Shown: positions 21,964 through 44,748 of the stretch, piece by piece | Layout of the letters: each line of letters begins with the position of its first letter | Position numbering within the stretch: the first letter of the stretch is position 1 | Source of the DNA: an uncultured Gammaproteobacteria bacterium | GTDB lineage: Bacteria; Pseudomonadota; Gammaproteobacteria; UBA6429; Thiohalophilaceae | Direction of reading: 5' to 3' | DNA length: 64,000 bases | NCBI GenBank assembly: GCA_913064945.1 | Contig: CAJYAN010000001.1 | Coordinates: 62,001-126,000 of the forward strand | Position numbers and translations under genes: made by a program | The notes under the pieces: model-generated | Seen by the model: the letters and a program-made list of their open reading frames with translations, nothing else | Databases searched by the model: none | Told to the model about the DNA's origin: nothing

Positions 21964-22941
21964 TTAGCCCCCTGTCATGGACATAAAGCGCACGACCTGT
22001 TGCGGATTTTCGTTAAAGTGATGGCGTTCTGGTTTCTGGGAAATCGCGTCCTGTATATGTGCCTTGAGCTGATTATCGGAGATGCCACTTCGCAGCAGGC
22101 CCCGTAGGGGATACTCATCATTTTGTCCCAGGCAGAGGTGTAGTGTGCCATCCACACTCAGGCGCACACGATTACAGGTTTCACAAAAGTGTTGCGACAT
22201 AGGGGTAATAAATCCGATTCGCAGATCGGTACCGGCGACGCGCATATAACGTGCCGGACCGCCACCGGGCATGGTGCTGGGGATGAGGGAGTAACGCTGT
22301 GCCAGGCGTTTTTTAATCACCTGAAGATCAACAAACTGTTGCTGGGCAATAAGTCCCGGTTCACCCATGGGCATGGTTTCGATAAAGCGCAGGGTAAAGT
22401 CATGCGCGAGACAAAATTCAACCATGTCTTCAACTTCATCTTCGTTGGTGTCTTTCATGACGACCATGTTGATCTTGACCGGTTGCAGTCCGGCGACCTT
22501 GGCCGCCATCAGGCCGGCCAGAGTTTTTTCAATCTTACCGCCGGTGATGGCCTTGTAACGTTCTGCGCGCAGGGTATCGAGGCTGACGTTAATGCGTGAA
22601 ATTCCTGCATCTGCCAGGGGCTGGGCCAGCTTTTCCAGCCGGGTGGCGTTGGTGCTGAGTGACAGGTCGTCCAGCATGGGTAAAGCAGCCAGGCGAGAAA
22701 TGAGCTCGGGCAGGCCGTGTCGAACCAGTGGCTCGCCACCGGTGATACGTACGCGATGGGTACCCAGCTCACTAAAGGCGCGGATTATGCGTTCGATCTC
22801 CTCAAAAGTGAGCCACTCCGCCGGCTCCTGAAAATCCTTAAAGCCTTTGGGTAAGCAATACTGGCAACGCAGGTCACAACGATCCGTGACAGACAGGCGC
22901 AGGTATTCAATCGGACGTTGGTAGGAATCAATCAATGGCAT
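21964..22941 (-). CDS. moaA: GTP 3',8-cyclase (molybdenum cofactor biosynthesis)
   Basis: A 325-residue radical-SAM enzyme. The N-terminal cluster motif is CDLRCQYC near residue 21, the C-terminal cluster has CETCNRVRLSVDG and a further Cys in LHLCLGQ, and the protein ends in MTGG, the double-Gly tail needed by MoaA. It starts molybdopterin synthesis. The start is placed at ATG 22941 (MPLIDSYQRP), since 23 further residues of the open frame have no family counterpart. Two large molybdopterin enzymes are encoded within 18 kb, which gives context for a nearby cofactor gene. Confidence 0.95.
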   Translation of the reverse strand: MPLIDSYQRPIEYLRLSVTDRCDLRCQYCLPKGFKDFQEPAEWLTFEEIERIIRAFSELGTHRVRITGGEPLVRHGLPELISRLAALPMLDDLSLSTNATRLEKLAQPLADAGISRINVSLDTLRAERYKAITGGKIEKTLAGLMAAKVAGLQPVKINMVVMKDTNEDEVEDMVEFCLAHDFTLRFIETMPMGEPGLIAQQQFVDLQVIKKRLAQRYSLIPSTMPGGGPARYMRVAGTDLRIGFITPMSQHFCETCNRVRLSVDGTLHLCLGQNDEYPLRGLLRSGISDNQLKAHIQDAISQKPERHHFNENPQQVVRFMSMTGG

Positions 22942-23039
22942 TTTTTCAGATAAATATCCAGTTATGAAGTATCGGCTTATTATATAAGGTATAGACCATG
23001 GATGGGGCAAATATTAGCCCTATATAAAAAATGGTTTAT

Positions 23040-23804: not shown

Positions 23805-23818
23805 TTGATGTAGATCAT
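23805..23818. promoter_or_regulatory. FNR/ANR-type box
   Basis: The sequence TTGAT–GTAG–ATCAT matches the FNR consensus TTGAT–N4–ATCAA at nine of ten arm positions. It lies about 160 bp before the proposed start of the cytochrome gene that opens the NapA-like cluster, and would place the cluster under low-oxygen control. Confidence 0.65.
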
Positions 23819-23978: not shown

Positions 23979-24695
23979 GTGTTAAAGAGAAACCCCTTTA
24001 TCTATTTGTTTGGCTTAATACTTCTGTTAGCAGGGTGTGTAAAACAGGACAAGGCCAACAGTGTTGCCGATCCAGTAAAGTCAAAATCAAAAGTTATAAT
24101 CAAAGCAGTAAATCCTAAGGCTGACCAGAAGCTTGTCAGTGCTGGAAAAGTGATTTACGAGCAAAACTGTATTTTTTGTCACCAGGCAGATGCGATTGGC
24201 AAACCTGGATTTGCCCCCTCACTGACAAACCAGGAATTTCTCAGCGTGGCCTCAGATTATTTTCTGAAGTCTACGATTCGTGACGGGCGTGTTGGTACGG
24301 GTATGCCACCCTTTGCTCACCTGGGTAAGGCGGATATCGAAGGGTTGGTAGCATATTTACGGAGTCATGCCAAGCTGCCGAATATTTCCGCTCGGGTTGA
24401 TGCAGAGCCGCATACCCAGGGTGACGGGCGACTCGGACAGGTGTGGTTTGAAGAAATTTGCGCCTCCTGTCATGGGCCACAGGGTGATGGCTACAGTGCG
24501 GGTGGTACCGGTACGGCCATTGGCAAGATTGGCTTTCTCGGTAAGGCAAGTGATGGATTTATTCGTGAGACCATCAAAAATGGCCGTTCCAATACGCGTA
24601 TGCGTGGCTTTAGTGGGCCTGCGGCGATGGCGGCTCTTTCGGCGCGTGATATTGATGACATCATCGCCTACTTACGTACCGTTCCAAGCAAATAA
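23979..24695 (+). CDS. di-haem cytochrome c lipoprotein
   Basis: A 238-residue protein. The N-terminus is a lipoprotein signal (LIYL-type hydrophobic run ending in the lipobox LLAGC). Two class I cytochrome c domains follow, with haem sites CIFCH (near residue 62) and CASCH (near residue 162), and likely Met ligands in GTGMPPFAHL and TRMRGF. GTG 23979 is chosen because AAGGAG lies eight bases upstream and the lipoprotein signal begins there; the open frame continues upstream without a ribosome site. As first gene of the cluster and membrane-tethered in the periplasm, it is the likely electron partner of the following molybdoenzyme, in the place NapB would take in a classic Nap system. Confidence 0.9.
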   Translation: MLKRNPFIYLFGLILLLAGCVKQDKANSVADPVKSKSKVIIKAVNPKADQKLVSAGKVIYEQNCIFCHQADAIGKPGFAPSLTNQEFLSVASDYFLKSTIRDGRVGTGMPPFAHLGKADIEGLVAYLRSHAKLPNISARVDAEPHTQGDGRLGQVWFEEICASCHGPQGDGYSAGGTGTAIGKIGFLGKASDGFIRETIKNGRSNTRMRGFSGPAAMAALSARDIDDIIAYLRTVPSK

Positions 24696-24709
24696 TAAGG
24701 GGAAGATCC

Positions 24710-27406
24710 ATGAAACGTTTTAAGATGTCACGACGCGATTTTCTCAAATCCAGTAGTTTTATTACCTCCACAGCGGCAGGCGCGGGTCTGTTTGTAGCCG
24801 ACAACCCGGAGCTGGAAGCTGCAACATCGAATGAAGAGGTGACGGGGCGCAAGACTGCGATCGCCCAGTGCCCGTATTGCGGCGTGGGTTGCGGTACGAT
24901 CATCCAGGCTGAGAATGGCAAAATTGTCTCCATGCGCCCAGACAAGGATCACCCGACCAATTATGGTCTGCAATGTATTAAGGGACTGACGGCAGCCGAG
25001 CCAATTTATGTGGATCGCATGGCAGGTGACAGTTATGTCCGCAAGGATGTCTGGGAAGAATGGAATAAACCTAATCACGGTGACCTGACTTATACCAGTA
25101 AAACCAAAGGTTCGTTTGATGAGGAACATTTTGTGCGTGTCCCGTATGAGAAGGCATCAAACATGGTCGCACATAAGATTGCCTACATTGTGAAAAAATA
25201 TACCGGTAATTCCATTGGATTATATGGCTCCGGTCAATTGACTGTAGAAGGGCAATATTTAGAAAACCTGTTTATGAAAGGTGTATTGGGATCAAACACT
25301 ATTGAGGCCAATGCGCGGATGTGCATGACATCAGCCGTAACGGGTTATTTTGCAACATTGGGTTCCGATACACCGCCATTGGCTTATGAAGATATTGAAC
25401 TGTGCGACATGATTATGCATTTTGGGCATAACGCCCGCGAGTCACATCCTATAATTTTCTGGCGTGCGGCAGATCATAAACGCAATAAAGATATCCCCAC
25501 TGTGGTGGTTGATCCACGATATACCGGTACCGCCAAAGGCTATGAGGACATTAATCCGGGGAACTCAGTGCATGTGCCTATCCTGAATGGCGATATTAGT
25601 TTTCTCAATGCCATCGCCCATGTATTACTAAAAGATCATCAGGATGTGATTGACTGGGAGTTCGTCAAGACCCATACCACTGGTTGGGAAAAATATACTC
25701 AGGGAGTGTTGCGGGATTACAGTCCAGAACAGGTACAGGATCGTATGGGTGGACCCAACCATGATGTTTCTCCAGCCTTAATCCGTAGGGTCGCAGGAAT
25801 GTTTGCTGACGCAACACGCAAACGTCTTGCACGTAGTAAGGCTAAACATAGTAGCGAGGGTTATGGTGGGGTCATTATTATGTGGGGTATCGGTTATAAC
25901 CAGCATATCCATGGTCAGAACAATACGATTTCGATAATTAACTTGTTGACGCTGACAGGCAATCTCGCCAAGCCAGGCTGCGGACCATTCTCAATGACAG
26001 GTCAGCCCAATGCGATGGGTGAACGTTTCACGGGCGGCCTCACAGGTCGACTGCCTTTTAATCAGCCGCTTAATAATGTAAAGCATCGCAAATGGATTGC
26101 CAAAAGTTGGCGAGTGCCGGAGAAAAATCTTATTCAGGCGATGAATGCCAGAAACCCCGGTATGGCAATTGGCATGATGGAGCGTGCTCAGAAGGGTGAT
26201 GTCAAAGCAATGTTTTTTGTCTATGCGACACATATCGACCTTCCGGATCAGCACAATCTTGTTCGCCCAGCATTAATGAAGACATTCAATGTGGTGCAGG
26301 AAATATATCGGCACGCCCCAAACAATCTGTTTGCAGACGTCATATTCCCTGCAGCGACATGGGGTGAAGTGAATGGCGTTTATATTAGTTCGGAGCGTCG
26401 CATCAATCGAGTCGAAAAGGCCGCCGAGCCCCCAGCCGGTTGTCGTCCGGATATGGATATGGTCATTGATAAGGGCAAAGAGATTGCACAGCTGTTGGGG
26501 CTTGATGCAGACAAGATATTTCCATGGAAGAAAGGCAAGGATGGCTTCTATGATGGCGAGGATATTTTTCGCGATATGATCGCTGCCTCGGCGGGCACAG
26601 ATACTGACCTGACGGGTATGCTGGAAGTTGAGAAACTGGATAATAAGACACCGTATCAACAGTTGCATGACTTACGTGGTATACAGTGGCCGGCACCGAC
26701 GTATGAAATCGCCAAAGCTGGTGGTAGTAAGCGACGTTTTATGATGCAGGAGGGTCAGTGGAAGAATCGACCCTATGGTTATTTCCGCACCAAGGATGGC
26801 AAGGTGCACATGAAGCTCTGTCTGCAGGACTATAGCCAGCGTGAGGCAATTACCAAAAAACTCATGGAGTTTGGCGCGAAAGAAGGTGTCTATACCATTG
26901 ATAATATTCCGCTGCTAAAACAGGCGCGGGATATGGGCTTAACGCCTGACCTGCCGGACGAAGCCGCGCGCGGTGTGGCATGGGACAAGATTGCCAAGGA
27001 TAAATATCCCTACTGGCTTGGTCTGGGTGTGGTGTATGAACATTTTCATACCGCCAAGACGATTCGCAGTCCAACCACACGTCGCCTAGTACCGGAAATG
27101 TATGTGGAAATGCATCCCGAAGATGCCCGTGAGCTGGGTATTAAAGATGGTGATAAGGTGAAACTCGTGACACGTCGCGGTGAATTTGAAGCCAGGGCGC
27201 AAGTGGGCACGCATAGTCTGGTCAAGCCGGCGCGCAATTCAGTCGCGCGAGGCTATATGTTTAGCCCGTGGAATTTGTCGGTCGCGGACAGTGCCGATCC
27301 TAAAAAGAACAAGTGGCTGGTGAATGGTGTCTCCAGTCGTGTCTGGGATGTCGTCTCCGGCCAGGTAGACTTTAAGAAACTGGCCTGTCGCGTGGAGAAG
27401 GTATAG
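24710..27406 (+). CDS. NapA-like periplasmic molybdopterin oxidoreductase, catalytic subunit
   Basis: An 898-residue protein with a Tat signal (SRRDFLKSS near residue 5). The [4Fe-4S] ligands are CPYCGVGC followed after 27 residues by CIKG, whose Lys is the electron-transfer Lys of NapA/FdhF enzymes. The putative Mo ligand Cys is in ANARMCMTSAV near residue 206, matching the NapA pattern. The C-terminal molybdopterin-dinucleotide domain starts around MYVEMHPEDARELG. It differs from true NapA in having long insertions (for example residues 105–145 and 590–700) and in lacking napB, napC and napD neighbours. It may reduce or oxidise a substrate other than nitrate. A strong ribosome site (AAGGGGAAG) precedes the ATG. 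Confidence 0.9.
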   Translation: MKRFKMSRRDFLKSSSFITSTAAGAGLFVADNPELEAATSNEEVTGRKTAIAQCPYCGVGCGTIIQAENGKIVSMRPDKDHPTNYGLQCIKGLTAAEPIYVDRMAGDSYVRKDVWEEWNKPNHGDLTYTSKTKGSFDEEHFVRVPYEKASNMVAHKIAYIVKKYTGNSIGLYGSGQLTVEGQYLENLFMKGVLGSNTIEANARMCMTSAVTGYFATLGSDTPPLAYEDIELCDMIMHFGHNARESHPIIFWRAADHKRNKDIPTVVVDPRYTGTAKGYEDINPGNSVHVPILNGDISFLNAIAHVLLKDHQDVIDWEFVKTHTTGWEKYTQGVLRDYSPEQVQDRMGGPNHDVSPALIRRVAGMFADATRKRLARSKAKHSSEGYGGVIIMWGIGYNQHIHGQNNTISIINLLTLTGNLAKPGCGPFSMTGQPNAMGERFTGGLTGRLPFNQPLNNVKHRKWIAKSWRVPEKNLIQAMNARNPGMAIGMMERAQKGDVKAMFFVYATHIDLPDQHNLVRPALMKTFNVVQEIYRHAPNNLFADVIFPAATWGEVNGVYISSERRINRVEKAAEPPAGCRPDMDMVIDKGKEIAQLLGLDADKIFPWKKGKDGFYDGEDIFRDMIAASAGTDTDLTGMLEVEKLDNKTPYQQLHDLRGIQWPAPTYEIAKAGGSKRRFMMQEGQWKNRPYGYFRTKDGKVHMKLCLQDYSQREAITKKLMEFGAKEGVYTIDNIPLLKQARDMGLTPDLPDEAARGVAWDKIAKDKYPYWLGLGVVYEHFHTAKTIRSPTTRRLVPEMYVEMHPEDARELGIKDGDKVKLVTRRGEFEARAQVGTHSLVKPARNSVARGYMFSPWNLSVADSADPKKNKWLVNGVSSRVWDVVSGQVDFKKLACRVEKV

Positions 27407-27483
27407 ATAAGCAGGTACGAGTATCGGGGAATAGAGTCAGTTGTATCCTCGATACCTGTCACTCGAACCTGGTGACTATTTAA

Positions 27484-28068
27484 ATGAAACGTCGCACATT
27501 TATACAGGCAATGATCAGCGTGGGCACGAGCAGCCTACTGGCTGAAAACAGTCGTGCGGAACATAATAAGGTCTCCTTGCGTTTTCTACGGCCACCGGCG
27601 GCGTTGGCTGAAGACGAATTTTTATCGCGCTGTATTCGCTGTGGTAAATGTGGCGAGGTCTGCCCCAATCGCTGTATCCAGTATTTTGACCTGGAGAACG
27701 GTCTGTCCTCTATGGACACGCCCTATATTATCCCGCGCGATAAGGGCTGCATTCTATGCATGAAGTGTGGTGAGGCCTGCCCCTCCGGTGCGATACCGCC
27801 GGTTGCCAGGGAGATGCACACGATCCTGGATAACGTACACATGGGCAAGGCGGTTGTTAATGAAGAGCTGTGTCTGTCGTTCCAGGGTAAGACCTGTGGC
27901 GTGTGCTATCGCGCCTGCCCGTTGCAGGATGTCGCCATTCGCGTTGGAAGACTGGAGCAACCCCACGTGTTAAAGGACTGTGTCGGTTGTGGTCTATGTG
28001 AGCGCGCCTGTATTCAGATACCGCAGGCGATACGCATTATTCCTGATTATGAAAGAGCAAAGACGTGA
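27484..28068 (+). CDS. NapG-like Tat-exported polyferredoxin (first copy)
   Basis: A 194-residue protein with a Tat-like start (KRRTFIQ) and four [4Fe-4S] motifs: CIRCGKCGEVCP, CILCMKCGEACP, CGVCYRACP (with the preceding CLSFQGKTC) and CVGCGLCERAC. This is the NapG/MauM pattern. In Nap systems NapG sits on the periplasmic side and passes electrons from NapH to the catalytic subunit. It overlaps the following napH-like gene by 4 bp. A second napG-like gene follows after napH. Confidence 0.9.
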   Translation: MKRRTFIQAMISVGTSSLLAENSRAEHNKVSLRFLRPPAALAEDEFLSRCIRCGKCGEVCPNRCIQYFDLENGLSSMDTPYIIPRDKGCILCMKCGEACPSGAIPPVAREMHTILDNVHMGKAVVNEELCLSFQGKTCGVCYRACPLQDVAIRVGRLEQPHVLKDCVGCGLCERACIQIPQAIRIIPDYERAKT

Positions 28069-29045
28069 GCTGGACGCTAATACAACGACATTTAAATAAA
28101 CTACGTTGGCTGGTTTTAAGTCTGGTCTTTAGCATGTTAATACTCCTGCCTTTTCTGCACCTGTATCAAACGTATGCAGCGGCACACGCCTATGACCTGT
28201 TGTCTCCAATGGAAAAGACGATCTCGGATAGTATGGAATGGTTGACCAAACCCTTTATCAAAGACCCGGCTACCGATCTTAATCAAGTAAAGGGTACGAC
28301 CTGGTCAGCAACGTTATTTGGGGTAAAGGTCAGTGACCCTTTGGCGGTGGTAGGACATGTCGCCGCAGACAAGCAAATCTATATTCCATTCCTCGTCACG
28401 GCGTTAATACCAATTATATTAACGATGGTATTAGGGCGTGTCTTCTGTGGCTGGATCTGCCCGGCAACCTTGTTGTATGAACTAAATGATAATCTGGCCG
28501 CCTGGTTACGCAAGGCCGGTCTGCCGGTGAGTCGACACAAACTGGATACACGTCTCAAGTACCTAGTATTGATCATGGGGATTATTATTTCTGCACTCAG
28601 CGGCATCACGTCCTTTGCTGCGATGTATCCCCCGGCGATCATCGGGCGTGAAATATACTATGCTATCGCCTTGAGTGGTTTTGGCGCAGGTATGGTATTT
28701 TTTCTGCTGACCCTGCTGTTTGATCTTATGGTGACGCGGCGTGGTTTTTGTCGTTATGTCTGTCCAGGTGGTGCGCTCTATTCTTTGCTGGGTAGATTTC
28801 GCCTGTTGCGTATCAAGCGGGACGTGACACAGTGTAACGACTGTGCCAAGTGTAATGTCGTTTGCCAGTTTGGGCTGGATCCCTTGCGTGATGATTTTTC
28901 GCAGGAGTGCAATAACTGTACTGCCTGTATTGCCGTGTGTCCGACGGATGCGCTTTCATTTACGCTGAATATAAAAGATCAGGCATTTCAGGGCGCGGGT
29001 CACATGGGACATTTGCACCGCAAGAAAGAGTCTGAAAGCGAATGA
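28065..29045 (+). CDS. NapH-like membrane polyferredoxin (first copy)
   Basis: A 326-residue protein with about four membrane segments, the double motif FCGWICPATLL and FCRYVCPGGALYSLLGR (CxxxCP, typical of NapH/NosR/CcoG), and two C-terminal [4Fe-4S] motifs, CNDCAKCNVVC and CNNCTACIAVCP, on the cytoplasmic side. NapH is thought to oxidise quinol and pass electrons to NapG. It starts at GTG overlapping the previous stop (GTGA) and overlaps the next gene by ATGA, so the three genes are tightly coupled. Confidence 0.9.
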   Translation: MSWTLIQRHLNKLRWLVLSLVFSMLILLPFLHLYQTYAAAHAYDLLSPMEKTISDSMEWLTKPFIKDPATDLNQVKGTTWSATLFGVKVSDPLAVVGHVAADKQIYIPFLVTALIPIILTMVLGRVFCGWICPATLLYELNDNLAAWLRKAGLPVSRHKLDTRLKYLVLIMGIIISALSGITSFAAMYPPAIIGREIYYAIALSGFGAGMVFFLLTLLFDLMVTRRGFCRYVCPGGALYSLLGRFRLLRIKRDVTQCNDCAKCNVVCQFGLDPLRDDFSQECNNCTACIAVCPTDALSFTLNIKDQAFQGAGHMGHLHRKKESESE

Positions 29046-29698
29046 AACGTCGCAGCTTTATACAGCAACTGACACTGGGAGTCGGAGTGCTGGGCTTTAC
29101 GGCAATGCCGTTTTGGTTATCGCGATTATTGACACCCAGGGCGAATGCCGAAGCCCATCGACATATTCCCTTGCCCGGTGCGAAACGTAGTCGGGCAGCT
29201 TTTCTACAGGCCTGTATGGGTTGTGGTCTCTGTGGCGAGGTATGTCCACCACGTTGTATCAAGTTTCATAAAGACGATGCAGGCAAGGCCGCCAACACAC
29301 CCTATATTGATCCGGAACACAAAGGCTGCATTTTATGCGGTGACTGTATGAACGTTTGTCCGACCGAGGCACTTAACGTTATACCAATCAAAAATGTGGA
29401 TATGGGCGTAGCACAGATTGATCGGGCGGCCTGTTATCCGTGGGTAGACCAGGGCATCTGCGGTGCCTGTGTGAGTGTCTGTCCCCTTGGCGATACGGCG
29501 ATTGATTTTACCTTTGGTAATTTTTATCGTCCGGCAGTCAAAGATGGGTGTGTTGGTTGCGGCCAGTGTGTCGAGGTCTGCCCCGAGCCGAGCCTGCCTA
29601 TACGAATTGTGGAACGGAGCGAAGGCAAGGTGGCACGACATGGTGTTGGTTTTCGTCAGCTGGACAAATGGCAGGACGGTCAACGGTTAAAATATTGA
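29042..29698 (+). CDS. NapG-like Tat-exported polyferredoxin (second copy)
   Basis: A 218-residue protein with a clear Tat signal (KRRSFIQ followed by a hydrophobic run) and four [4Fe-4S] motifs: CMGCGLCGEVCP, CILCGDCMNVCP, CGACVSVCP (with CYPWVDQGIC) and CVGCGQCVEVCP. It is closer to standard NapG length than the first copy. The two copies flank one napH-like gene, an arrangement not found in the usual nap operons I know. I infer that they form a branched or extended electron path to the molybdoenzyme. Confidence 0.9.
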   Translation: MKRRSFIQQLTLGVGVLGFTAMPFWLSRLLTPRANAEAHRHIPLPGAKRSRAAFLQACMGCGLCGEVCPPRCIKFHKDDAGKAANTPYIDPEHKGCILCGDCMNVCPTEALNVIPIKNVDMGVAQIDRAACYPWVDQGICGACVSVCPLGDTAIDFTFGNFYRPAVKDGCVGCGQCVEVCPEPSLPIRIVERSEGKVARHGVGFRQLDKWQDGQRLKY

Positions 29699-29770
29699 AA
29701 TCTCATCTACAGTGTTCACGGAGGGACACAGAAAACATGATGAGTTCATACTGTCAGGTTGGTATTTTAT

Positions 29771-30388
29771 ATGTGCAAAGGTCTTGGCTTAAAGAGTAAA
29801 GATAAAAAATCATATAGAGTGATGTTTTGCATTATATTTCTCTGTTATTTACCGTCAGCAAGTGCACATCATGTCCTGGGTCGACCTGCCTATAGCCTGA
29901 ACGAAGAATCCAATACGCCACCGAGTAAGCAGGTAGAGACACAGGTGGGGAAGTATGCCATCACTTACATGGCCTTCCCGGCCTTCCCGAAGGCAAATGA
30001 GACGGGCCGGGTTAACTTATACGCTTCGCGGATTGATAATGGACATGTGTTTAGAGGCAAGGTCACTTTTAAGGTCAGAGACGACAGTTGGTTTGCATCT
30101 AATGAGGAGACACTGGGCGTGCAACAGATTGATGACGGTGTCTATCGGCAGGGATTTGTTTTTAAAGCGACAGGGGATTATATCATTACCGCTGAATTTG
30201 AATCCGATGGTGAGCCGTATATCATTGACTTTCCCCTGCGGATTGGCAAACCATTTCCCATCGGTCCCCTAGGCCTGAGCGTGGCCGCCATTTCACTAAT
30301 ACTGATTGTCGTGAACATTATACAACGTCGACGTATGCAGCGCCTGCAGGCACAACGGCATCATGCCAAACCGCAAGATAGTCAGTAA
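29771..30388 (+). CDS. FixH/YtkA-like membrane-anchored periplasmic protein
   Basis: A protein of about 205 residues: a basic N-terminus, a hydrophobic signal (VMFCIIFLCYLPSASA), a beta-rich YtkA/FixH-like domain (GKVTFKVRDDSWFAS and TGDYIITAEFES), and a C-terminal TM (LGLSVAAISLILIVVNII) with a basic tail. If the signal is cut after SASA, the mature protein begins His-His, recalling copper histidine-brace proteins; this is speculative. ATG 29771 is the most plausible start; GTG 29819 or ATG 29822 would give a shorter signal. It overlaps the next gene, a CcoG/NapH-like polyferredoxin, by one base, echoing the ccoG–fixH pairing of oxidase-assembly loci. Confidence 0.72.
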   Translation: MCKGLGLKSKDKKSYRVMFCIIFLCYLPSASAHHVLGRPAYSLNEESNTPPSKQVETQVGKYAITYMAFPAFPKANETGRVNLYASRIDNGHVFRGKVTFKVRDDSWFASNEETLGVQQIDDGVYRQGFVFKATGDYIITAEFESDGEPYIIDFPLRIGKPFPIGPLGLSVAAISLILIVVNIIQRRRMQRLQAQRHHAKPQDSQ

Positions 30389-31977
30389 TGAATAAACTGG
30401 CCGGCGTCGACTGGAGTCATCTAGTCTGTAAGTCGCCAGGCTTTATGGTGCATCCGGGAATGCCGCCAGGATGGGTAGTATTTATCCTGTTGTCATTATT
30501 CGTCATTATCGTGGCGGCCTGGCGCAACTCACTGCTGAGTGTGCAACAGGGACCCGCGGGGCGGTATTTTGCATTTCCTGCACCGATCAGTAAATGGTTG
30601 ACGCGACGGGTGATCAGTCCCTGGTTACTGGTAGTGCTACGCCTCATCACTGCCAGTATTTTTTTGTTAGTCATTGTTGCCGGCCTGTTTGGTAATCCCA
30701 TCCCGGAACGCAATCTCGCCACAGAACTGACCTGGACGCTGTGGTGGACGGGATTGATTATTGCCATTATTTTTAGTGGCTCGGCCTGGTGTGCTATCTG
30801 TCCTTGGGATGCGATTGCGACCTGGTTGGTGAGACGTCGCTTATGGCAACGTAGTCCAGAGACGGCGAGTCTCAATATGCGTGTGCCGAAAATATTGCGA
30901 AGTGTCTGGCCTGCCTTGTTAATGTTTATTGGCCTTACCTGGTTAGAACTTGGTTTTGGTGTGACGCGAAGCCCCTATGCTACGGCAGTGCTGGCGCTGG
31001 TAATTGTCGTCCTGACGACGGTGTCGTTGGCGATGTATGAACGTAAGGCATTTTGTCGCTACTTTTGCTCTGTCGGTCGCACGATTGGCTTTTATTCCGA
31101 ATTGTCACCCGTTGCACTGCGCCCTGTCGACTCACAGGTCTGTGCCGATTGTAAGACGCTGGAGTGTTATCACGGTTCAGAAAATATTGAACCCTGCCCG
31201 ACGCATCTGGTTATGGGGCGCATTACACAAAACACCTATTGCACCTCCTGTGGTGCCTGTAGCCAGAGCTGTCCCTCTCAGAACATCAACTGGCAATGGC
31301 GTCATGTGGGTAGTGAGGCGATACAGACGGCGCGACCACACTGGGATGAAGGCTGGTTTATACTCGGCCTAGTGGCGTTGACCAGCTTTCATGGCATCAC
31401 GATGTTACCCATATGGGAAAAATGGATTCGACATTTCGCCGAGCAGATTAACGACTCGGGACAACTGCTATGGAGTTTCTCGGTGGGGATGGGTGTTATA
31501 TTGCTGTTCCCCATTCTTATTTTTATGTTGCTGGTAAAGATAAACCAGCGTTTGAACTTTAGAGAGCTGGAATTCAAGCGACTCTTTTCCAGTCTGGCCA
31601 TAGCGACCCTGCCGCTGGCCTTTACCTATCACATTGCACATAACCTGACGCATCTGTTTCGTGAGAGTCGTGGCATGCTGAGTGTGTTCGCCAATCCACT
31701 GGGGATTGGTCGCCTGCCGTTGTCCAGTGCAGAGATGCATTTGCGGCATGTACAGCCACTTATTCCGCAGAATCTGATCTATGCACTCCAGGCGGGACTG
31801 ATCGTGTTTGGCTTCTGGCTGGCCACCAGGATTTTGGCGTTTCGCCTTCAAGGTCTTGTTGAAAGAACACAGCGGCCTCGTTTTGCCATACAGTGGCCGA
31901 TACTGGTATTTATAACGCTTATGAGCCTGTTGAATCTCTGGTTGCTAATGCAGCCTATGATGATGCGAATGAAATAA
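30388..31977 (+). CDS. NapH/CcoG-like membrane polyferredoxin (second, larger copy)
   Basis: A 529-residue protein with about nine or ten membrane segments. It has the CxxxC(P) pair WCAICPWDAIATWL (near residue 132) and FCRYFCSVGRTIGF (near residue 222), then a cytoplasmic Cys-rich part with CADCKTLECYHG, EPCPTH and CTSCGACSQSCP. This matches the NosR C-terminal / NapH / CcoG superfamily with an extra C-terminal multi-TM region (His-containing YHIAHNLTHLF). It probably moves electrons across the membrane or to or from quinone. It is the second NapH-type protein of the cluster. Confidence 0.85.
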   Translation: MNKLAGVDWSHLVCKSPGFMVHPGMPPGWVVFILLSLFVIIVAAWRNSLLSVQQGPAGRYFAFPAPISKWLTRRVISPWLLVVLRLITASIFLLVIVAGLFGNPIPERNLATELTWTLWWTGLIIAIIFSGSAWCAICPWDAIATWLVRRRLWQRSPETASLNMRVPKILRSVWPALLMFIGLTWLELGFGVTRSPYATAVLALVIVVLTTVSLAMYERKAFCRYFCSVGRTIGFYSELSPVALRPVDSQVCADCKTLECYHGSENIEPCPTHLVMGRITQNTYCTSCGACSQSCPSQNINWQWRHVGSEAIQTARPHWDEGWFILGLVALTSFHGITMLPIWEKWIRHFAEQINDSGQLLWSFSVGMGVILLFPILIFMLLVKINQRLNFRELEFKRLFSSLAIATLPLAFTYHIAHNLTHLFRESRGMLSVFANPLGIGRLPLSSAEMHLRHVQPLIPQNLIYALQAGLIVFGFWLATRILAFRLQGLVERTQRPRFAIQWPILVFITLMSLLNLWLLMQPMMMRMK

Positions 31978-32112
31978 TAAAGTAGAAGGTCGACGTATGT
32001 TACAAACGACTGACAATAGACGACGCCAAACTTCGGGTTGTCGGGGCGAGATGCCAGAAAGTGCAGGTGTGGCGTGTCGAAAAGGCATGAAGCAGGGTAC
32101 AGGCTGGTAAAT

Positions 32113-32706
32113 ATGGATCGTCGTGCATTTTTCAAACACTTTGGCCGCAGGGTTTCAGAAAAGGCGATTGAGCATATGGACCAACGCGTGGAAAAAAAGG
32201 CATCACACTGGATACGCCCGCCGTATGCCATCGCTGAACTGGAGTTTCTGCTGGCTTGTACCCGCTGTGATAAATGTATCGAGGCCTGCCCGCACGAGGT
32301 CGTCTTTCCACTACCCGCCAGACGCGGCGGGGATGTGGTGCATACCCCGGCGATGGATCTGCTCAATCACGGTTGTCATCTCTGTAGCGATTGGCCGTGC
32401 GTAAGCGTGTGTGCGTCCCAGGCGCTGAAGCTTCCGCTGTCAGAAAATAATGAAAGGAATGCCCTGCCAAAACTGGCGATTGCGGTGATTGAAACAGGGA
32501 CTTGCCTGCCGTATCAGGGGCCAGACTGTGGCGCCTGTGAGACGTCTTGTCCAGTACCGGGTGCTCTTGAGTGGCATGATTTTAAACCGTACATCAATAT
32601 CGGTTTATGTACGGGATGCGCCTTATGTAGAGAAGCCTGTGTCCTTGAGGACAAAGCAATAAGGATACACTCCTTAAATCATATTCAGCGAGAGAGCCAG
32701 ACCTAG
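32113..32706 (+). CDS. NapF-like cytoplasmic polyferredoxin
   Basis: A protein of about 197 residues. The start DRRAFFKHFGRR resembles NapF, with an RR pair but no hydrophobic export segment, so a cytoplasmic location is likely. Four Cys motifs follow: CTRCDKCIEACPH, CHLCSDWPCVSVC, CGACETSCP and CTGCALCREAC. NapF assists maturation of NapA before export in known systems. I place the start at ATG 32113; the open frame begins earlier but the upstream residues have no family support. It is the last gene of the cluster; the next gene is on the opposite strand. Confidence 0.85.
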   Translation: MDRRAFFKHFGRRVSEKAIEHMDQRVEKKASHWIRPPYAIAELEFLLACTRCDKCIEACPHEVVFPLPARRGGDVVHTPAMDLLNHGCHLCSDWPCVSVCASQALKLPLSENNERNALPKLAIAVIETGTCLPYQGPDCGACETSCPVPGALEWHDFKPYINIGLCTGCALCREACVLEDKAIRIHSLNHIQRESQT

Positions 32707-32937: not shown

Positions 32938-35900
32938 TCAGATCCTCCAGTCAAACTTTTCAATCGGGATGGGTTTAGAGATCGCGTAGCCCTGTGCATA
33001 ATCAACACCAATGGTATAAAGAAAATCCATGATCTCGGGTTTCTCAACGAATTCTGCAATCGTCTTCAGGTTCATGACTTTGGCAACCTGGGTAATTGCC
33101 TGAACCATGGACCGATCTATCGGGTCATCGATAATATCTTTAACAAAGTTACCATCAATTTTTAGAAAGTCGACTGGTAGATTTTTCAAGTAGCTAAAGG
33201 ATGACATACCGCTACCGAAATCATCCAGTGAAAAGCGGCAGCCATTCTTTTTGAGTTCATTGATTATGACGCTGGCGCGGGACATGTTGGCAACCGCTGC
33301 CGTTTCTGTGATTTCAAAACAGATTTTTTCTGAAGGTAGATTGTACTCATTGAACAAACCGGTTAAAAAGCTGGAGAAGTTCGGATCGCCAATGGTCTGT
33401 CCGGACAAATTGATCGCGCACAAGTCAAGATTATGTAAAAACGGCTTGTTTTGCGCCAGCCAATCAAAGGTATTTTTTAATACCCAGCGATCAACAAAGG
33501 TCATGAGATTGTAGCGTTCTGCCGCTGGAATGAAGGCTCCTGGGGGAATAGGGATACGGGGATTATCACGCATGGTGAGGAGTACTTCAAAATGGTGATT
33601 GGTCGAATGCGATGCGACTGGGACAATTTTCTGTATATTTAACATGAAGCCATTACTGTCCAGGGCCTCATGTATCCTTGAGACCCACTCCATTTCGCCG
33701 TAACGTTTGGCAACATCAAAGTCATCATCTCTGTAGATATGAATACGGTTGCGGCCGGACTCTTTGGCAATGTAACAGGCGGTATCGGCGGCGCTGAGCG
33801 CCTGGGTAATATCCTGCGTATTACGGTTGATCGTGACTACACCAATGCTGGCGCCAATAGCAAAGGATTTTTGATCCCAGGTAAAACGGTAATCATTAAT
33901 GAGTTCCTGAATGGCGGCGATATTTTTAATTGCAGGTTCAAGTTCACAATGTAAAAAGAGAATGCCAAATTCATCACCACCGAGACGTGCGAGGGTGTCG
34001 CCCTGTCGAATCTTATCCTGCAGCAAACTCGCCAGTTGTCTCAGTAATTCGTCGCCGGCAATATGGCCGCAGGTATCGTTGACGACTTTAAACTGATCCA
34101 GATCGATGTAGCATACTACGTGCTCTGATCGTTCGATCTGGATACTGTAAATGGCCTGTTGCAAGCGTTGTTCAAATTCATGTCGGTTAATCAGGCCGGT
34201 GAGGGTGTCGTGGCTGGCGAGATAGTCTACCTTGCGCGAAATAGTCCGTTCGTGGGTAATATCTCTAAAAACCAGAACCGCGCCCGCGTTGCTATTGGCT
34301 GCTTCAATTGGGCTACAGGATAATTGTGCTGGAAAGGCAGTATCATTCTTGCGCCACATGACCTGATTATCACCCTGGTAGGTCTGATTTTGCTTAATGG
34401 CACGATAGATGAAACTGTATTTTACCTGAAAAGCGGATTTGTCCTCATAGCTATGTTGTAATAAATCATGGATATTTTTACCGTAGACTTCCTCGCCTTT
34501 CCAGCCGGTCATTTTTTCGGCAGCGCTGTTCATAAAAGTGCATAACAAATCTTTGTCGACAGCAATAATACCCTCGCTGGTGGAGTCGATCAGGGTCAGA
34601 ATGTTGGTGTTGAGATTTTCGGATTGTTTCTGTATAGATTTTGTTTGTTCACGCAGGCGGTGCGTATGAATGGCAATGGCGATTTCATGACAGACACTTT
34701 GCAGTAAATCGGCAGTTCCACGAAGATAACTCGAGCCCACGCTAGTGTGGCCCGTGAGAAAGACCCCGAGGATCTCACCCTGTATCTTTAATGGCAGCGC
34801 AATAAGCCGTTTCAGGTGTAGCCGTTCGAGTTCATTATCCCGATAAGTGATGGCATTCTCGAGGTCTTCTATAATGATCTTTGTACCTTTCTGGGCAACC
34901 TGATTGATTGGCAGATTCGCAAGATAGGGCATTGTAAAAAGGCCCTTACTCAGATAGTCACCATTATGTGCAAGACATATAAGCTGCTCTCGAGCGGGCT
35001 CATCGACAAATATCCAGGCCTCATTATCAAGGCTGACAGATTTGGCGATATCGAATAACTGACTTAGCACCGCATTAACATGGCTGGTATCGTCGAGCTG
35101 ACGCAATAAATTATTATTAACGGCCAGGATGTGATCCCGGGTATTGAGTGACTGGATAAGTTGGTTATGGCGGTGCGTCAGCATACCGAGTTCATCGGTG
35201 GATTTCGCCTCGAATAGCGATGTCGTTGTCTCGCCGGTCTCAGGATGGCTGACCAACGTTTCCAGAGGGTGCAGTGACTGGTGAAAGCTTTTGACGAATA
35301 ACAGGCTACAGGCTATCACGAGAAATTCCAGACTGAGCCAGACGATAACGGTTTCCAGTGTGAAGTAGCCGGTCTTGGTCCAGTAATACTGCACTATCAT
35401 GGTTTCGGTTAATAATGGTGTCAGCCCGCCGATCAGGAAAACTTTTGTACGTAACCGGAAAATGGGTCTGTTTTGAATGAGAGGAGCAAAGTATTTACCA
35501 AACAGGTCAAATATCGTAATGAATACAGGTAGTCCTACGAGAATGGCGAGTATTAATGCTACCAGCTGAAGGCGTAGCCAGTCGACCAGCCCGGGTTGGT
35601 AATCGCTATACAACATTGCGCTAAAGATTACGGCGTAAGGGGCGATTAATAAATAGCCAAGAAGCAGTCCCCAGAAATGTCGTGAAAAGTATTGCAGTCG
35701 CCGCAGGGCCCGTTGTGTGTCCTCTCCAATGGCGGCATCGAGGTAAGTGCTCAGTGGCTGGATATAGCGCCGAAAATACAGGATTGCAATGACTAGTGTC
35801 GTGATGACGCTGCCGGGTAACAGGGGGGTGCTGAGAATTGACCAGAGCTGTTGAGAATTCAGGAGCTCAAAATAGTAAAGCAAGATAAAACCTGTCACTG

Positions 35901-35985
35901 GCGTCAGCAGCCAGGTCAGGCTAATGAGCCAGCTAAAACGTCGTAGAAATCGCTTGCCGCTCATAGATGAGGTGTGCCGTAACAT
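32938..35985 (-). CDS. membrane GAF–PAS–GGDEF–EAL signalling protein
   Basis: A protein of about 1015 residues. The N-terminal part has about six membrane segments, then a HAMP-like linker (LFEAKSTDELGMLTHRHNQL), a GAF domain (about residues 300–440), a PAS domain (ILTLIDSTSEGIIAVD onwards), and a GGDEF domain with RLGGDEFGILF and an RQGD inhibitory site just before it. The EAL domain has EVL in place of EAL but keeps FEITET, LDDFGSGMSSF and LKIDG, so phosphodiesterase activity is possible. ATG 35985 is preferred to TTG 36009; ATG 35964 is also possible. The sensed signal is unknown. A bidirectional terminator lies upstream of its start region. Confidence 0.9.
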   Translation of the reverse strand: MLRHTSSMSGKRFLRRFSWLISLTWLLTPVTGFILLYYFELLNSQQLWSILSTPLLPGSVITTLVIAILYFRRYIQPLSTYLDAAIGEDTQRALRRLQYFSRHFWGLLLGYLLIAPYAVIFSAMLYSDYQPGLVDWLRLQLVALILAILVGLPVFITIFDLFGKYFAPLIQNRPIFRLRTKVFLIGGLTPLLTETMIVQYYWTKTGYFTLETVIVWLSLEFLVIACSLLFVKSFHQSLHPLETLVSHPETGETTTSLFEAKSTDELGMLTHRHNQLIQSLNTRDHILAVNNNLLRQLDDTSHVNAVLSQLFDIAKSVSLDNEAWIFVDEPAREQLICLAHNGDYLSKGLFTMPYLANLPINQVAQKGTKIIIEDLENAITYRDNELERLHLKRLIALPLKIQGEILGVFLTGHTSVGSSYLRGTADLLQSVCHEIAIAIHTHRLREQTKSIQKQSENLNTNILTLIDSTSEGIIAVDKDLLCTFMNSAAEKMTGWKGEEVYGKNIHDLLQHSYEDKSAFQVKYSFIYRAIKQNQTYQGDNQVMWRKNDTAFPAQLSCSPIEAANSNAGAVLVFRDITHERTISRKVDYLASHDTLTGLINRHEFEQRLQQAIYSIQIERSEHVVCYIDLDQFKVVNDTCGHIAGDELLRQLASLLQDKIRQGDTLARLGGDEFGILFLHCELEPAIKNIAAIQELINDYRFTWDQKSFAIGASIGVVTINRNTQDITQALSAADTACYIAKESGRNRIHIYRDDDFDVAKRYGEMEWVSRIHEALDSNGFMLNIQKIVPVASHSTNHHFEVLLTMRDNPRIPIPPGAFIPAAERYNLMTFVDRWVLKNTFDWLAQNKPFLHNLDLCAINLSGQTIGDPNFSSFLTGLFNEYNLPSEKICFEITETAAVANMSRASVIINELKKNGCRFSLDDFGSGMSSFSYLKNLPVDFLKIDGNFVKDIIDDPIDRSMVQAITQVAKVMNLKTIAEFVEKPEIMDFLYTIGVDYAQGYAISKPIPIEKFDWRI

Positions 35986-36105
35986 GGGTGGGAGCGGGGA
36001 TCCTCTCAATTTGCTCTAGTTATAACGGCTATTCGAATATTACCTATAGTCTATTAGAAATATATAATATTTCGTCGGCGATGGGTTTACTTTTTCGTTC
36101 AGGTA

Positions 36106-36162: not shown

Positions 36163-36498
36163 TTAACTACAGCCTTTGGGGCGGGGTAGTCCGGCGATCT
36201 TGTTGGCACACTTAATCAATCCGGTGGGAAACAGCGAGTAGATGTATTTTTGGCTGCTGCGATCGGCGCCAAAACGGTCTTTCATTATCTTGGAGAACTG
36301 ACGTGGTTCACAGACCGAGCCATTGTCCTGAAAGTATTCACGCGCCGTCCTGATAATGTCCCAGTGCTCTTCGGTGAGTGGATCAATGCGTTCGTTTTTA
36401 CCAATCTCAACAGCGAGTTCCTCGCTCCACTCGTCGAGATTCTCCAGCCAGCCGGCTTCGCTTAATTGGATGGTCTTACCATTTACCTGTGCTTCCAT
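36163..36498 (-). CDS. DsrC/TusE-family sulfur carrier paralogue
   Basis: A 111-residue protein of the DsrC/TusE/RspA family: LTEEHWDIIRTAREYF in the middle and LFPTG followed by KIAGLPRPKGCS at the end. The penultimate Cys (the persulfide-carrying position) is kept. The second Cys of true DsrC, 11 residues earlier, is replaced by Asn; another Cys stands two residues further upstream (IKCANKIAG), and a third is at CEPRQF. So it is neither a standard DsrC nor a simple TusE. It lies upstream of, on the same strand as, nothing else, and just downstream of soeABC, suggesting a link with sulfite oxidation or regulation. Confidence 0.88.
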   Translation of the reverse strand: MEAQVNGKTIQLSEAGWLENLDEWSEELAVEIGKNERIDPLTEEHWDIIRTAREYFQDNGSVCEPRQFSKIMKDRFGADRSSQKYIYSLFPTGLIKCANKIAGLPRPKGCS

Positions 36499-36570
36499 AA
36501 TATCTGCCTCAATCTTTAATGCTTAATACCTGACCAATTATATCAGGATCTATATTATTATCCACTGATA

Positions 36571-37548
36571 CTAGATGGTCTGATAATACAAATTTTGCGG
36601 GTGGTTGGCCTGGGCAAAGAAGAACCAGCGCTCGGCAAGCAGGCCAATATACTGGACCACAAAGGCGGCGATCAGAATGCCGCTATTGTGCTTGTCCATA
36701 CCGACCCAGAGCAGGATAAAGGGCACCACAAATGCCAGTAGCAGGAAGCTCCATTTCATCGTTTTGAGGAAGGTGGCCGTCGCATGGTGGAAAAAGTCAC
36801 GCGTATTCACCGAGCCGCCCATAAAGCCCATCGCCTTTTGCTGGATCTTGGTATGGCGTACGCCAATGGCGGTCTGGATCGTCGACTTGGCCTTGATGCG
36901 ACTGTTACGCACTAAGGAGGCACTGCGAGTAATAAAGCCGGCGGCGATAATAATCATGCTCCAGATGGCATAAAATCTCATCAGCTCCGGGGCGCTGATA
37001 TTGGCAAAGGCCGTGGCCAGGGTAAAGCCCGATGCCGTACCCAGTAAAATATAATTGATGACGGTTAATGGGCTATGCCACTCCTGCAGGAATTTCAGGC
37101 AGGCGTAAATCATGCCGGTACAGATGAACAGGGCAAAAGTCGTCAGCATGCCGAGGGTACCGATGATCAGGGTCAGCTGCAGGCGAGCCCCGGCCTTGGT
37201 CGTGAACAGGACCGTGTCCCATTCAAACCAGTGCATGAGACTATAGAAAAATACCAGGCCCATCATAATGGGTAGCACAATGACTTCACGCGACAGCCAT
37301 GAGGTACGCCACTGTGTCGCCGCACGCCAGGCGCGTTCGGGGCGACCGAGATGGAAAAAGGACGCGACCAGACCGCCAACTAAAAACAACAGGGCCAGCA
37401 TGGCACCGGTACCATAAAAGTGTGCACTATCCTGGGTGGGCAGCAGCTCAACGGCGGAATAACTCTGGCCGGTAAATAGTGCCAGGAACATGCCCTGACC
37501 AACGCCGATCAAGGTCGTTAGAAAAATGACTGAAAAAGCGGGATTCAT
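36571..37548 (-). CDS. soeC: sulfite dehydrogenase membrane subunit SoeC
   Basis: A 325-residue DmsC/NrfD-type membrane protein with about eight membrane segments (for example VIFLTTLIGVGQGMFLALF near the start). It anchors the SoeAB complex at the cytoplasmic face of the inner membrane and passes electrons to quinone. It is the last gene of the soeA–soeB–soeC order; the 118-bp gap after soeB is free of other genes. Family assignment rests on fold and operon; DmsC-like subunits of other enzymes look similar. Confidence 0.87.
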   Translation of the reverse strand: MNPAFSVIFLTTLIGVGQGMFLALFTGQSYSAVELLPTQDSAHFYGTGAMLALLFLVGGLVASFFHLGRPERAWRAATQWRTSWLSREVIVLPIMMGLVFFYSLMHWFEWDTVLFTTKAGARLQLTLIIGTLGMLTTFALFICTGMIYACLKFLQEWHSPLTVINYILLGTASGFTLATAFANISAPELMRFYAIWSMIIIAAGFITRSASLVRNSRIKAKSTIQTAIGVRHTKIQQKAMGFMGGSVNTRDFFHHATATFLKTMKWSFLLLAFVVPFILLWVGMDKHNSGILIAAFVVQYIGLLAERWFFFAQANHPQNLYYQTI

Positions 37549-37666
37549 ACGACTAATTCTCCAAAAATATTATTTAACGCCAGCACGCGGTGACAGAGCA
37601 TAAATAAAATGCATTATTCATTATTATGGTTTCCTTTGCCTTGTAGCGCCTTTGCGTTGAAAAAAA

Positions 37667-38398
37667 CTACCAGGAAGTGCTGTCGTCAAGTGTTGGTGTC
37701 TTGACTGGCGCACTTGGACCGCGCTGTTCTTTATTCAACGGATTATCCGCACGCTGTAATTCATCTTCATGAATATGCATACGTGTCTTGCGGCGTGGTA
37801 GATAGTGATTCGAAGGCATCGTGCCCCATTCCGGCATGAGCGGGTAGCCGCCTTCTTCACGAATCGCGACCGAGACTTCTGATTCCGGGTCATGCACGTC
37901 ACCATAGAGGCGGGCACTGGTCGGGCAGGCCAGGACACAGGCGGGTTTGCGCTCGCTCTCCGGTAGCGTTTCGTCATAAAGCCGATCCACGCACAGAGTA
38001 CATTTTTTCATAACCTGTTGCTGCTCATCGATTTCCCGCACGCCGTAAGGGCAGGCCCAGGAGCAATAACGACAACCAATACACTTGTCGTAGTCGACCA
38101 GGACAATACCATCTTCCTTGCGCTTGTAGCTGGCGCCGGTTGGACAGACCGGAACGCAAGGCGGGTCCTCGCAGTGCAGGCAGCTCTTCGGAAAGTGCAG
38201 GGTTTCGGTATTGGGAAATTCACCGATTTCATAGGTCTGCACACGGTTAAAAAAAGTCCCGGTAGGGTCTTTGGCATAAGGGTTTTCATCGGTCATAAAA
38301 CCGGCCGGGCCAGAGGTGTTCCACTCCTTGCAGCTGGTGACACAGGCGTGACAACCGACACAAACATTCAGATCAATAACAAGGGCTAATTGAGTCAT
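37667..38398 (-). CDS. soeB: sulfite dehydrogenase iron–sulfur subunit SoeB
   Basis: A 243-residue ferredoxin-like subunit with four [4Fe-4S] clusters: CVGCHACVTSCKEWN, CLHCEDPPCVPVCP, CIGCRYCSWACPYG and CTLCVDRLYDE with a later CVLACP. No export signal is present, in line with a cytoplasmic enzyme. It starts directly after the soeA stop with no spacer. Confidence 0.9.
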   Translation of the reverse strand: MTQLALVIDLNVCVGCHACVTSCKEWNTSGPAGFMTDENPYAKDPTGTFFNRVQTYEIGEFPNTETLHFPKSCLHCEDPPCVPVCPTGASYKRKEDGIVLVDYDKCIGCRYCSWACPYGVREIDEQQQVMKKCTLCVDRLYDETLPESERKPACVLACPTSARLYGDVHDPESEVSVAIREEGGYPLMPEWGTMPSNHYLPRRKTRMHIHEDELQRADNPLNKEQRGPSAPVKTPTLDDSTSW

Positions 38399-41305: not shown

Positions 41306-42043
41306 AGTAAACCTTCTTTTTTGGGCAAGCGCGCGATTATAGGGATCGCATGCTGCGTGGACTAATCAGCATTACTAAGCATATTATAAATTCATTATAT
41401 ACTAAAATAATTTGCTTTGACCTTATCCAGATATACTGGCTTGGCCTGTCGACAGGGCAAAATTAAAAAACCCTACTAACCATTTGTTTTTATGAATATT
41501 TTAAGATGCCGACAGCGATGGGGCAACTATAGTCGATCGGCAGCAGATTTGAACCCCGGATCATGCGAGATTGAGGAAATAAAATACCTTTATACGTTGG
41601 TTTCGATGCTGGTGCTAAGTCGGCGCACAGTCATTAGTCGCAAGCGGTGTCCGCCAATTATCAGATACATAAGTAAGTATAAACGCCCTGGGACACCTGC
41701 CGATGAATCATGGCCATGACGTCACGACGGGTAGCGTGCCAAGCAAGGGGGGAGGGGTTCAAGGTGGGCTAAACAGGGCGTACCTCATCATTATCCGTGT
41801 GCGTGAGTAGAGTCAGTCGTGGGCCGAGGCGATGAGAAACTATCCCTGTCTTTAATCTATGCCCATATAAATATCCCTATTATTCTGTCCCTCCCAGTGT
41901 GTTGTATAGTTGCTCCCCATTTGATGTTCGCCTGCCAGGATGACGGAATACGGGGCAGGCCGAATGAGACGAATTCAGAGTTTTATGCAATTTAAATAAT
42001 AGATAGCGGCCAACATGGGCGCTCAACCGTGAGGATAGTAAGG
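41306..42043. other. intergenic region between divergent soeA and sat
   Basis: A 738-bp stretch without a convincing gene. It must hold the promoters of soeCBA and sat. It is AT-rich next to soeA. A hairpin-forming segment (TGCCGA/TCGGCA arms) lies around 41506–41543. Short open frames here lack ribosome sites and recognisable products. A GGGGTTCAAATC-like element on the minus strand around 41550 resembles a tRNA T-loop but no tRNA fold follows. Confidence 0.5.
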
Positions 42044-43234: not shown

Positions 43235-43854
43235 GGCGGCAGCGGGCAAGTTAACGGCTTTTAAGCCCTTCTGAAAATCGCCCGACTGAGGTTATTCGGC
43301 GGGCGCATTTTTAAATTTGATAGTAGAAGCTGCCTTATTGATTTATTCAATAGGCCATTAATTTTTTTTGATATCCATGGGTTTAGCCTTGATAAAGATA
43401 AGGATCTTCAAGGTTTTAAATGAGTTACATCAATTTTTCTGGTGTGCCATTATTTAGTATAAAAGCGATTTATGCTGGTTAATTTAATTCTATGGCTATT
43501 AAGAGGAAAAAGGGCTTTATTCAGAGGGCAAAACTCGTTAACTTTACGCACCTAAAAATATATGTGCATATTAGGCAATAAATAAGGCCTAAATACATAT
43601 ATAACAGTGCTTTGGGGATGGAATCAGGCAGTTTCATATGTACTACCCGACCGCTTTCTCAAGAACACAAGCTTCTTGTCTTTTGTTCTACAAAAAACAA
43701 GATACTGGATAGTTTTAACAAGTTAGTAACAACACTTAGCGTATCGATATTAAACAGGTTTGTTTACTGTAAAAAATCATTGATTAGATGCAGAAAACAG
43801 AATGAATAATAATCGCTAAAATTAAATTTTACCTTTTAAGGAGTCAGCTTCATC
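43235..43854. other. intergenic region between sat and aprM
   Basis: A 620-bp stretch. It begins with a hairpin terminator for sat and continues AT-rich towards aprM. A GAACACAAG / CTTTTGTTC inverted repeat lies at 43663–43688, about 165 bp before aprM, and could belong to its leader or an operator. No gene is convincing; a 65-codon open frame at 43612 lacks a good ribosome site. aprM itself has an AAGGAG site. Confidence 0.5.
43279..43313 (+). terminator. putative intrinsic terminator after sat
   Basis: The stem CGCCCG / CGGGCG around a 15-base interior is followed by ATTTTTAAATTT. It is 45 bp after the sat stop. The loop is long, so efficiency is uncertain. Confidence 0.6.
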
Positions 43855-44706: not shown

Positions 44707-44748
44707 CATTGACTTACATAACAATTATTTAAGGAAAGAGAGAATATT

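Follow-up and report, generated by a model that had tools for sequence, protein, structure and literature searches.

The eight-gene cluster described here very probably encodes an anaerobic reductase of some kind. Our favoured reading, held with moderate confidence from sequence comparisons, is that the enzyme is a periplasmic reductase for anaerobic respiration, most likely with nitrate as its substrate, which belongs to a lineage separate from NapA, NasA and NarG. The cluster occupies positions 23979-32706 of a stretch of 64,000 nt (the window) of contig CAJYAN010000001.1 (assembly GCA_913064945.1) from an uncultured member of the Gammaproteobacteria (Thiohalophilaceae). Its catalytic subunit, A, was followed in a class sample of 369 genomes, 24 of which hold the A family (three of these copies being pieces; these are the cluster genomes below), and in the best 80 of 166 relatives from a scan of named genomes, which together with the window make up 81 loci.

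Gene layout and conservation of the cluster

The original prediction had claimed an eight-gene cluster, and all eight genes were found at their place as open reading frames running in one direction (Table 1). They had been called largely overlapping, which holds at G1/H1, H1/G2 and X/H2 but not at A/G1, G2/X and H2/G3. The front gene, cyt, had been read as a di-haem class I cytochrome c lipoprotein. Its position and its haems were borne out, exactly two CxxCH motifs being present in 75 of 77 family members, and a lipobox was seen in the window; in the Photobacterium copies, however, none was seen (both by eye). The description of the last gene as F-like did not hold up: G3 scored 104 bits with the NapG model versus 63 bits with the NapF model, both below cut-off. 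X had been called FixH-like, but a Pfam search up to E = 1 matched no family, and a comparison with solved structures returned only two chance-level chains up to E = 5. These results do not support a relation of X to FixH.

Table 1. Features of the cluster and its surroundings in the window
Feature	Position	Strand	Remarks
moaA, molybdenum cofactor synthesis	21964..23010	-	near the cluster in 9/81 loci including the window (best 80 of 166 relatives)
FNR-type box, TTGATGTAGATCAT	23805..23818	+	putative; one mismatch to TTGAT-N4-ATCAA; 160 bp before the cyt gene
cyt, di-haem class I cytochrome c with lipobox	23979..24695	+	GTG start; two CxxCH
A, Tat-type molybdenum reductase, NapA/NasA-like, 898 aa	24710..27406	+	proposed nitrate reductase
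G1, NapG-like ferredoxin, RR start, 194 aa	27484..28068	+	NapG model 133 bits, cut-off 269
H1, NapH-like membrane polyferredoxin	28065..29045	+	GTG start; NapH model 157 bits, cut-off 234; proposed quinol dehydrogenase
G2, NapG-like ferredoxin, RR start, 218 aa	29042..29698	+	NapG model 91 bits, cut-off 269
X, secreted protein	29822..30388	+	start chosen at 29822; conserved HHVLGRP.YsL.e.SnTPps near mature end and C-terminal membrane helix (both by eye)
H2, membrane iron-sulfur protein, distant NapH type, 529 aa	30388..31977	+	napH_ model 33 bits, cut-off 213
Gap, 135 bp	31978..32112	+	NapC-type gene of genome G132 absent here (locus comparison)
G3, NapG-type ferredoxin, 197 aa	32113..32706	+	start MDRRAFFKH; NapG model 104 bits, cut-off 269

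Among the 81 loci (the window and the best 80 of 166 relatives) A is present in 81, cyt in 79, G1 in 77, H1 in 71, X in 61, G3 in 52, a NapC-type gene in 51, G2 in 48 and H2 in 43; these are counts in which frame picking can miss overlapping genes and in which many contigs end inside the cluster. The order cyt to A is kept in 79 of the 81 loci. A gene-order search, suggested together with the original prediction, recovered the same eight genes in order in 28 of the best 80 of 166 relatives, and thus in 29 of 81 loci with the window included, many contigs being cut. This indicates that the cluster is no chance grouping. H2 and G2 are not universal, since X is followed directly by G3 in 14 loci and 12 loci with H1, X and G3 have no G2 (again within the window and the best 80 of 166). 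The catalytic subunit is better conserved than its partners, with a median identity among the best 80 of 166 relatives of 80% for A versus 53-66% for the partners.

According to their records, the best 80 of 166 relatives comprise 57 Gammaproteobacteria, 16 Alphaproteobacteria, one member each of two other classes and five without a class. Photobacterium indicum, P. profundum and a Parabeggiatoa are among them. Plasmid records matched A in 278 cases, none at 60% identity or above, and a plasmid DNA search gave only pieces of 51-55 bp in 8 records. A scan for promoters and terminators gave no more matches than shuffled sequence did. In locus L094 a second G2-H1 pair, in reverse orientation, immediately precedes the cluster (L094:6996-8704), and in the window a protein of 1023 aa with GGDEF-type letters (by eye) faces the cluster end (32938-36009).

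Family placement and active site of the catalytic subunit

A begins with the twin-arginine start SRRDFLK, has an N-terminal four-Cys motif and carries the Cys that serves as molybdenum ligand (motifs by eye). This agrees with the earlier description of a Tat-exported molybdoenzyme with NapA-type [4Fe-4S] and Cys ligands. Of the 25 NCBIfam models listed for A, none reached its cut-off. The top score came from the formate dehydrogenase alpha model TIGR01591 (337 bits, cut-off 666), and the NapA models TIGR01706 and NF010055 gave 312 bits (cut-off 930.55) and 329 bits (cut-off 904). By TIGR01706 the A copies of all 24 cluster genomes scored 226-255 bits, below the cut-off. If nitrate is indeed the substrate, this is a periplasmic nitrate-reductase lineage of which 24 of 24 copies lie below the NapA model cut-off, and surveys based on such cut-offs would consequently undercount nitrate respiration.

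In the class sample the copy of the window is joined by 23 others at 78-86% identity, and the next matches reach at most 39% (E 1e-60). Throughout the best 80 of 166 relatives the identity of A is 78-87%. Outside the family, the best matches in the class sample share 38-39% with parts of A and belong to the NasA clade. When 39 proteins, a set from which TtrA and SrdA are absent, were placed in a tree, the A family came out as a single clade (100/100) whose stem measures about 1.8 changes per column; its position next to the NapA clade had moderate support (89/87). The NasA rows made up a separate clade (99/98), and the formate dehydrogenases and a group of NasA-like enzymes of 726 aa were also separate. 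Joining the family to classical NapA alone was rejected (AU p = 3e-6), which rules out that A is nested in NapA; a tree with the A family and NasA as one group was not rejected (p = 0.19). As judged from sequence, A is a sharply bounded clade outside NapA, with a probable place beside either NapA or NasA.

In common with NasA and NarB, A has a Gln-Arg motif with NasA spacing, and its best outside matches are of the NasA clade. NasA, in contrast, has neither a Tat-type start nor G, H or cyt partners. Two plasmid copies of NasA sit together with nirB. A survey of the MopB/DMSO reductase superfamily with over 47,000 relatives placed NapA and NasA near the cytoplasmic formate dehydrogenases, their positions being unsure, and the available part of that survey names no family with the partner set of the A cluster (PMC10100899).

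The roles of the molybdenum-ligand Cys and of the Met, Gln and Arg in the active site are known from the NapA literature. Cys205, Met206, T430, Q432 and R439 of A were invariant in 14 aligned rows (eight of the family, four of the NasA clade, one of the 726 aa type and one NapA). The same active-site letters occur in five NapA or nap-operon rows, including E. coli NapA, and are absent from four formate dehydrogenase rows. The nitrate-type letters thus count against an acceptor other than nitrate, a reading in which the cluster would keep its layout and its role in anaerobic respiration but reduce, for example, another oxyanion or an N-oxide. This reading is rather unlikely in our judgement, and it draws on two features of A. 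One is the length of the stem, about 1.8 changes per column, that separates its clade from NapA. The other concerns H240, R243, R534 and H535, which do not vary among 21 family members and are replaced by other residues in NapA and NasA, differences which could mean another substrate. Equally doubtful is its wider form, a widespread marine respiration that does not use nitrate, is under FNR control, runs on a NapA-like A with a ferredoxin, polyferredoxin and di-haem chain of its own and has been hidden among look-alikes. If an acceptor other than nitrate were true, a common marine respiration would so far have gone unrecognized (habitats according to record titles).

The score of TIGR01591 bears on another alternative, namely that the cluster works in the oxidizing direction, with A oxidizing a periplasmic formate-like or sulfur-like substrate and with an oxidase or the quinone pool receiving the electrons by way of the G and H proteins or the cytochrome. 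That a formate dehydrogenase model ranks first (337 bits, cut-off 666, versus 329 for NapA) is in its favour, as are a structural match and the presence of sulfur-oxidation genes in the window. An AlphaFold model of A made with NasA and NapA rows reached pLDDT 71 and pTM 0.73, residues 202-205 and 431-445 being below 50 (a model from close relatives only had pLDDT 46). Foldseek gave Desulfovibrio NapA as the closest solved fold, and in VIA-align formate dehydrogenase 1 (Z 36.6, rmsd 4.0, 615 aligned) and NapA 2jio (Z 36.0, rmsd 3.9, 632 aligned) tied. A thus resembles the formate dehydrogenases (FdhF, FdnG and two others) in overall fold and in its top score. The signature of these enzymes is Cys or Sec followed by His, together with an RGQNN-type Arg. 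Directly after the molybdenum ligand A has Met, a feature of NapA and NasA too, whereas the four formate dehydrogenase rows have His at that place. Cys-Met and TGQPN were found in 11 family rows, from which both the formate dehydrogenase His and the Arg of RGQNN/RGHSN were absent. On its motif and its separate clade the identification of A as a formate dehydrogenase is rejected, and the missing His and Arg argue against the oxidizing direction, which is improbable.

Electron partners and regulation

Like the nap operons (napFDAGHBC of E. coli; napD-G-H-C-A-like in Selenomonas), the cluster combines an enzyme with a Tat-type start, a four-Cys motif, Mo-Cys-Met and a Gln/Arg motif with NapG- and NapH-like partners and, in 51 of the best 80 of 166 relatives, with a NapC-type cytochrome. 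It differs from them in that A falls outside the NapA clade and exceeds E. coli NapA in length by 70 aa, in that a class I di-haem cytochrome is present instead of NapB, and in having X together with as many as three proteins of the G type and two of the H type. The view of the original prediction that this is a distinct module apart from the nap operons was therefore supported: A is outside NapA and below all 25 NCBIfam cut-offs, and its different set of partners is largely kept. No description of this eight-gene set was found in the available part of the open-access literature.

The absence of NapB and NapC had been part of the same prediction. For NapB it was upheld, a blastp search with E. 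coli NapB finding none in the window. Among the 81 loci (window and best 80 of 166) E. coli NapB matched in one, L093, which holds a true nap operon. E. coli NapD gave no blastp match in the 81 loci, a weak test because none was found even beside the true nap operon of L093. In this locus the canonical nap operon (NapF-, A-, G-, H- and NapB-like; L093:123-6614) adjoins the cluster in divergent orientation. The claim on NapC holds for the whole source genome, where no match to PF03264 was obtained at E 1e-10, but not for the relatives. A NapC/NirT-type gene lies at one end of the cluster or inside it in 51 of the best 80 of 166, so that NapC belongs to the system in most relatives, and five CxxCH motifs are present in 49 of 50 long NapC-type proteins. 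In genome G132 this gene is found between H2 and G3 (G132:C1:2924371-2924868), where the window has 135 bp. The missing NapC is, on this comparison, apparently a feature of the source genome and not of the system.

NapC-type and NapH-type proteins usually take their electrons from quinol. In the proposed mechanism quinol would be oxidized at H1, or at NapC where present, and the G proteins and the di-haem cytochrome would carry the electrons to the [4Fe-4S] cluster of A, from which they would reach the molybdenum. The cytochrome would stand in for NapB and pass electrons directly to A. As the source genome is without NapC, the H/G route or a putative bc1-to-cytochrome route would have to serve there. 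Genes for a Rieske protein and cytochrome b (in L094 c1 as well) follow the cluster in two loci (L094:15331-17818 and L108:15580-17429, by eye), which would suit a route of the latter type. A protein of the DUF255/thioredoxin type was seen beside the cluster in six loci (L087:6551-8905, L126:17880-20288, L118:16215-18350, L107, L075 and L085), and both proteins that were tested have a DsbD N-terminal domain. In the window a protein of this type is found at 674-2560, 21 kb from the cluster.

The FNR consensus is TTGAT-N4-ATCAA. FNR-type boxes with at most one mismatch were searched for from -350 to +60 of the first cluster gene in 63 loci (among the best 80 of 166 and the window, which is included) that have the cyt gene and enough upstream sequence, with 403 other gene starts of the same loci as controls. 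They were present in 31 of 63 loci versus 26 of 403 controls (Fisher p = 7e-16, an optimistic value because related loci are not independent). An exact box occurs in 13 of the 63 loci, and three decoy patterns were found upstream of the cluster in 1, 2 and 0 of the 63. Across the window 8 such matches were counted versus 3.0 expected, the box at 23805 being one. FNR-like genes lie in the flanks of 8 of 81 loci (window and best 80 of 166), and one of two FNR proteins tested against NCBIfam was over the cut-off. FNR-type regulators would switch the cluster on in the absence of oxygen. The boxes, together with the NapC and NapH types in the cluster, also argue against the oxidizing direction discussed above and disfavour the word oxidative, which the original prediction had offered as an option. 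In L112 and L113 the neighbours of the cluster include a NarL that passes its cut-off and a NarX/Q-like sensor that does not, and L085 has a weaker NarX/Q-NarL pair. These neighbours, in two loci or in three if L085 is counted, count against an acceptor other than nitrate.

Proposed nitrate reduction and genomic context

In the favoured reading the molybdenum of A would reduce nitrate to nitrite in the periplasm. The evidence on the substrate is indirect; it consists of the active-site letters, the FNR boxes, the NarX/Q-NarL neighbours and the haem-d1 genomes without Nar and Nap described below, and it leans towards nitrate. The suggestion of the original prediction that the substrate may not be nitrate keeps some probability. 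Nitrite could then be reduced by NirBD, which is encoded on another contig of the source genome; NirS, NirK, NarG and NapA were not found in this genome over the limits used, and none of the 24 cluster genomes has a NirK over its cut-off.

With fragments counted, NarG was found in four and NapA in six of the 24 cluster genomes, one or the other in nine. Neither was found in 15, some of which are incomplete. Because nine of the 24 also hold NarG or NapA, the cluster does not simply replace Nar or Nap. That six cluster genomes already have NapA and four NarG lends some weight to the alternative of another acceptor. The nine genomes with another respiratory nitrate reductase, and the lack of nirS and nirK in the source genome, would also fit a module for redox balancing or signalling that contributes little to growth and is kept beside other nitrate reductases. 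This explanation is very improbable, as A is under very strong constraint (78-87% identity in the best 80 of 166 relatives) and is served by a dedicated multi-gene electron chain.

Scored by PF02239, haem d1 genes were present in 10 of the 24 cluster genomes versus 63 of 345 cluster-free genomes (p = 0.013), or in 9 of 24 (p = 0.03) when G335, with a single d1 match of NirN size, is left out. Among the haem-d1 genomes, six of 10 with the cluster are without both NarG and NapA versus 12 of 63 without the cluster (p = 0.012); leaving out G335 this becomes 6/9 versus 12/63 (p = 0.006). With genomes at least 90% complete only, the difference is not significant (3/7 versus 11/58, p = 0.16), and two of the six genomes, G132 and G341, share one genus. 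This pattern of d1 genomes without Nar and Nap is a further point against an acceptor other than nitrate and for the nitrate reading.

G132, presumed to be the environmental sulfur oxidizer Sulfuriflexus mobilis and consisting of one contig of 3,111,340 bp, is one of these six. It holds five PF00384 enzymes, which are A, two NasA-like enzymes (frames of 893 and 730 aa) and two that were taken as NuoG and SoeA from size and sequence. In the 39-protein tree the 893 aa frame falls in the NasA clade and the 730 aa frame is of the 726 aa type. Given these five enzymes, the A cluster is the best candidate if G132 grows on nitrate. For S. mobilis aks1 (AP018725) anaerobic growth is listed in the available part of the source (PMC6397845). 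This presumed cultured holder of the cluster makes either reading, nitrate or another acceptor, testable.

The 726 aa type was represented in the tree also by proteins of four other cluster genomes, G132, G080, G250 and G245. This NasA-like enzyme could be the nitrate reductase of the source genome and of relatives such as G132 and G080. On contig C13 of the source genome (L046:4917-11771) nirB, nirD, the 726 aa NasA-like molybdoenzyme and a fused DmsB/DmsC-type partner of 604 aa stand in a row, and this block is perhaps a quinol-linked cytoplasmic nitrate reductase.

As far as the available parts of the sources go, a related bacterium with nap (PMC10993476) and others with nar (PMC11427306) have been reported, and Shewanella is a known case of a genome with two Nap systems (PMC6308320). 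P. profundum 3TCK has expanded nitrate-respiration genes, including napABCEG and a cytochrome c553, whose overlap with the A cluster is not evident from the accessible part of the report (PMC4019646).

Further along the window, at 36163-47114, lie a DsrC/TusE-type gene, a PhsA-like molybdoenzyme accompanied by its B and membrane subunits, Sat and AprA. In our reading the PhsA-like block is SoeABC-like, and from these sulfur genes the source organism looks like a sulfur oxidizer. Sat was also seen near the cluster in L048, L049 and L051, and Soe-like neighbours in L049 and L053 (by eye).
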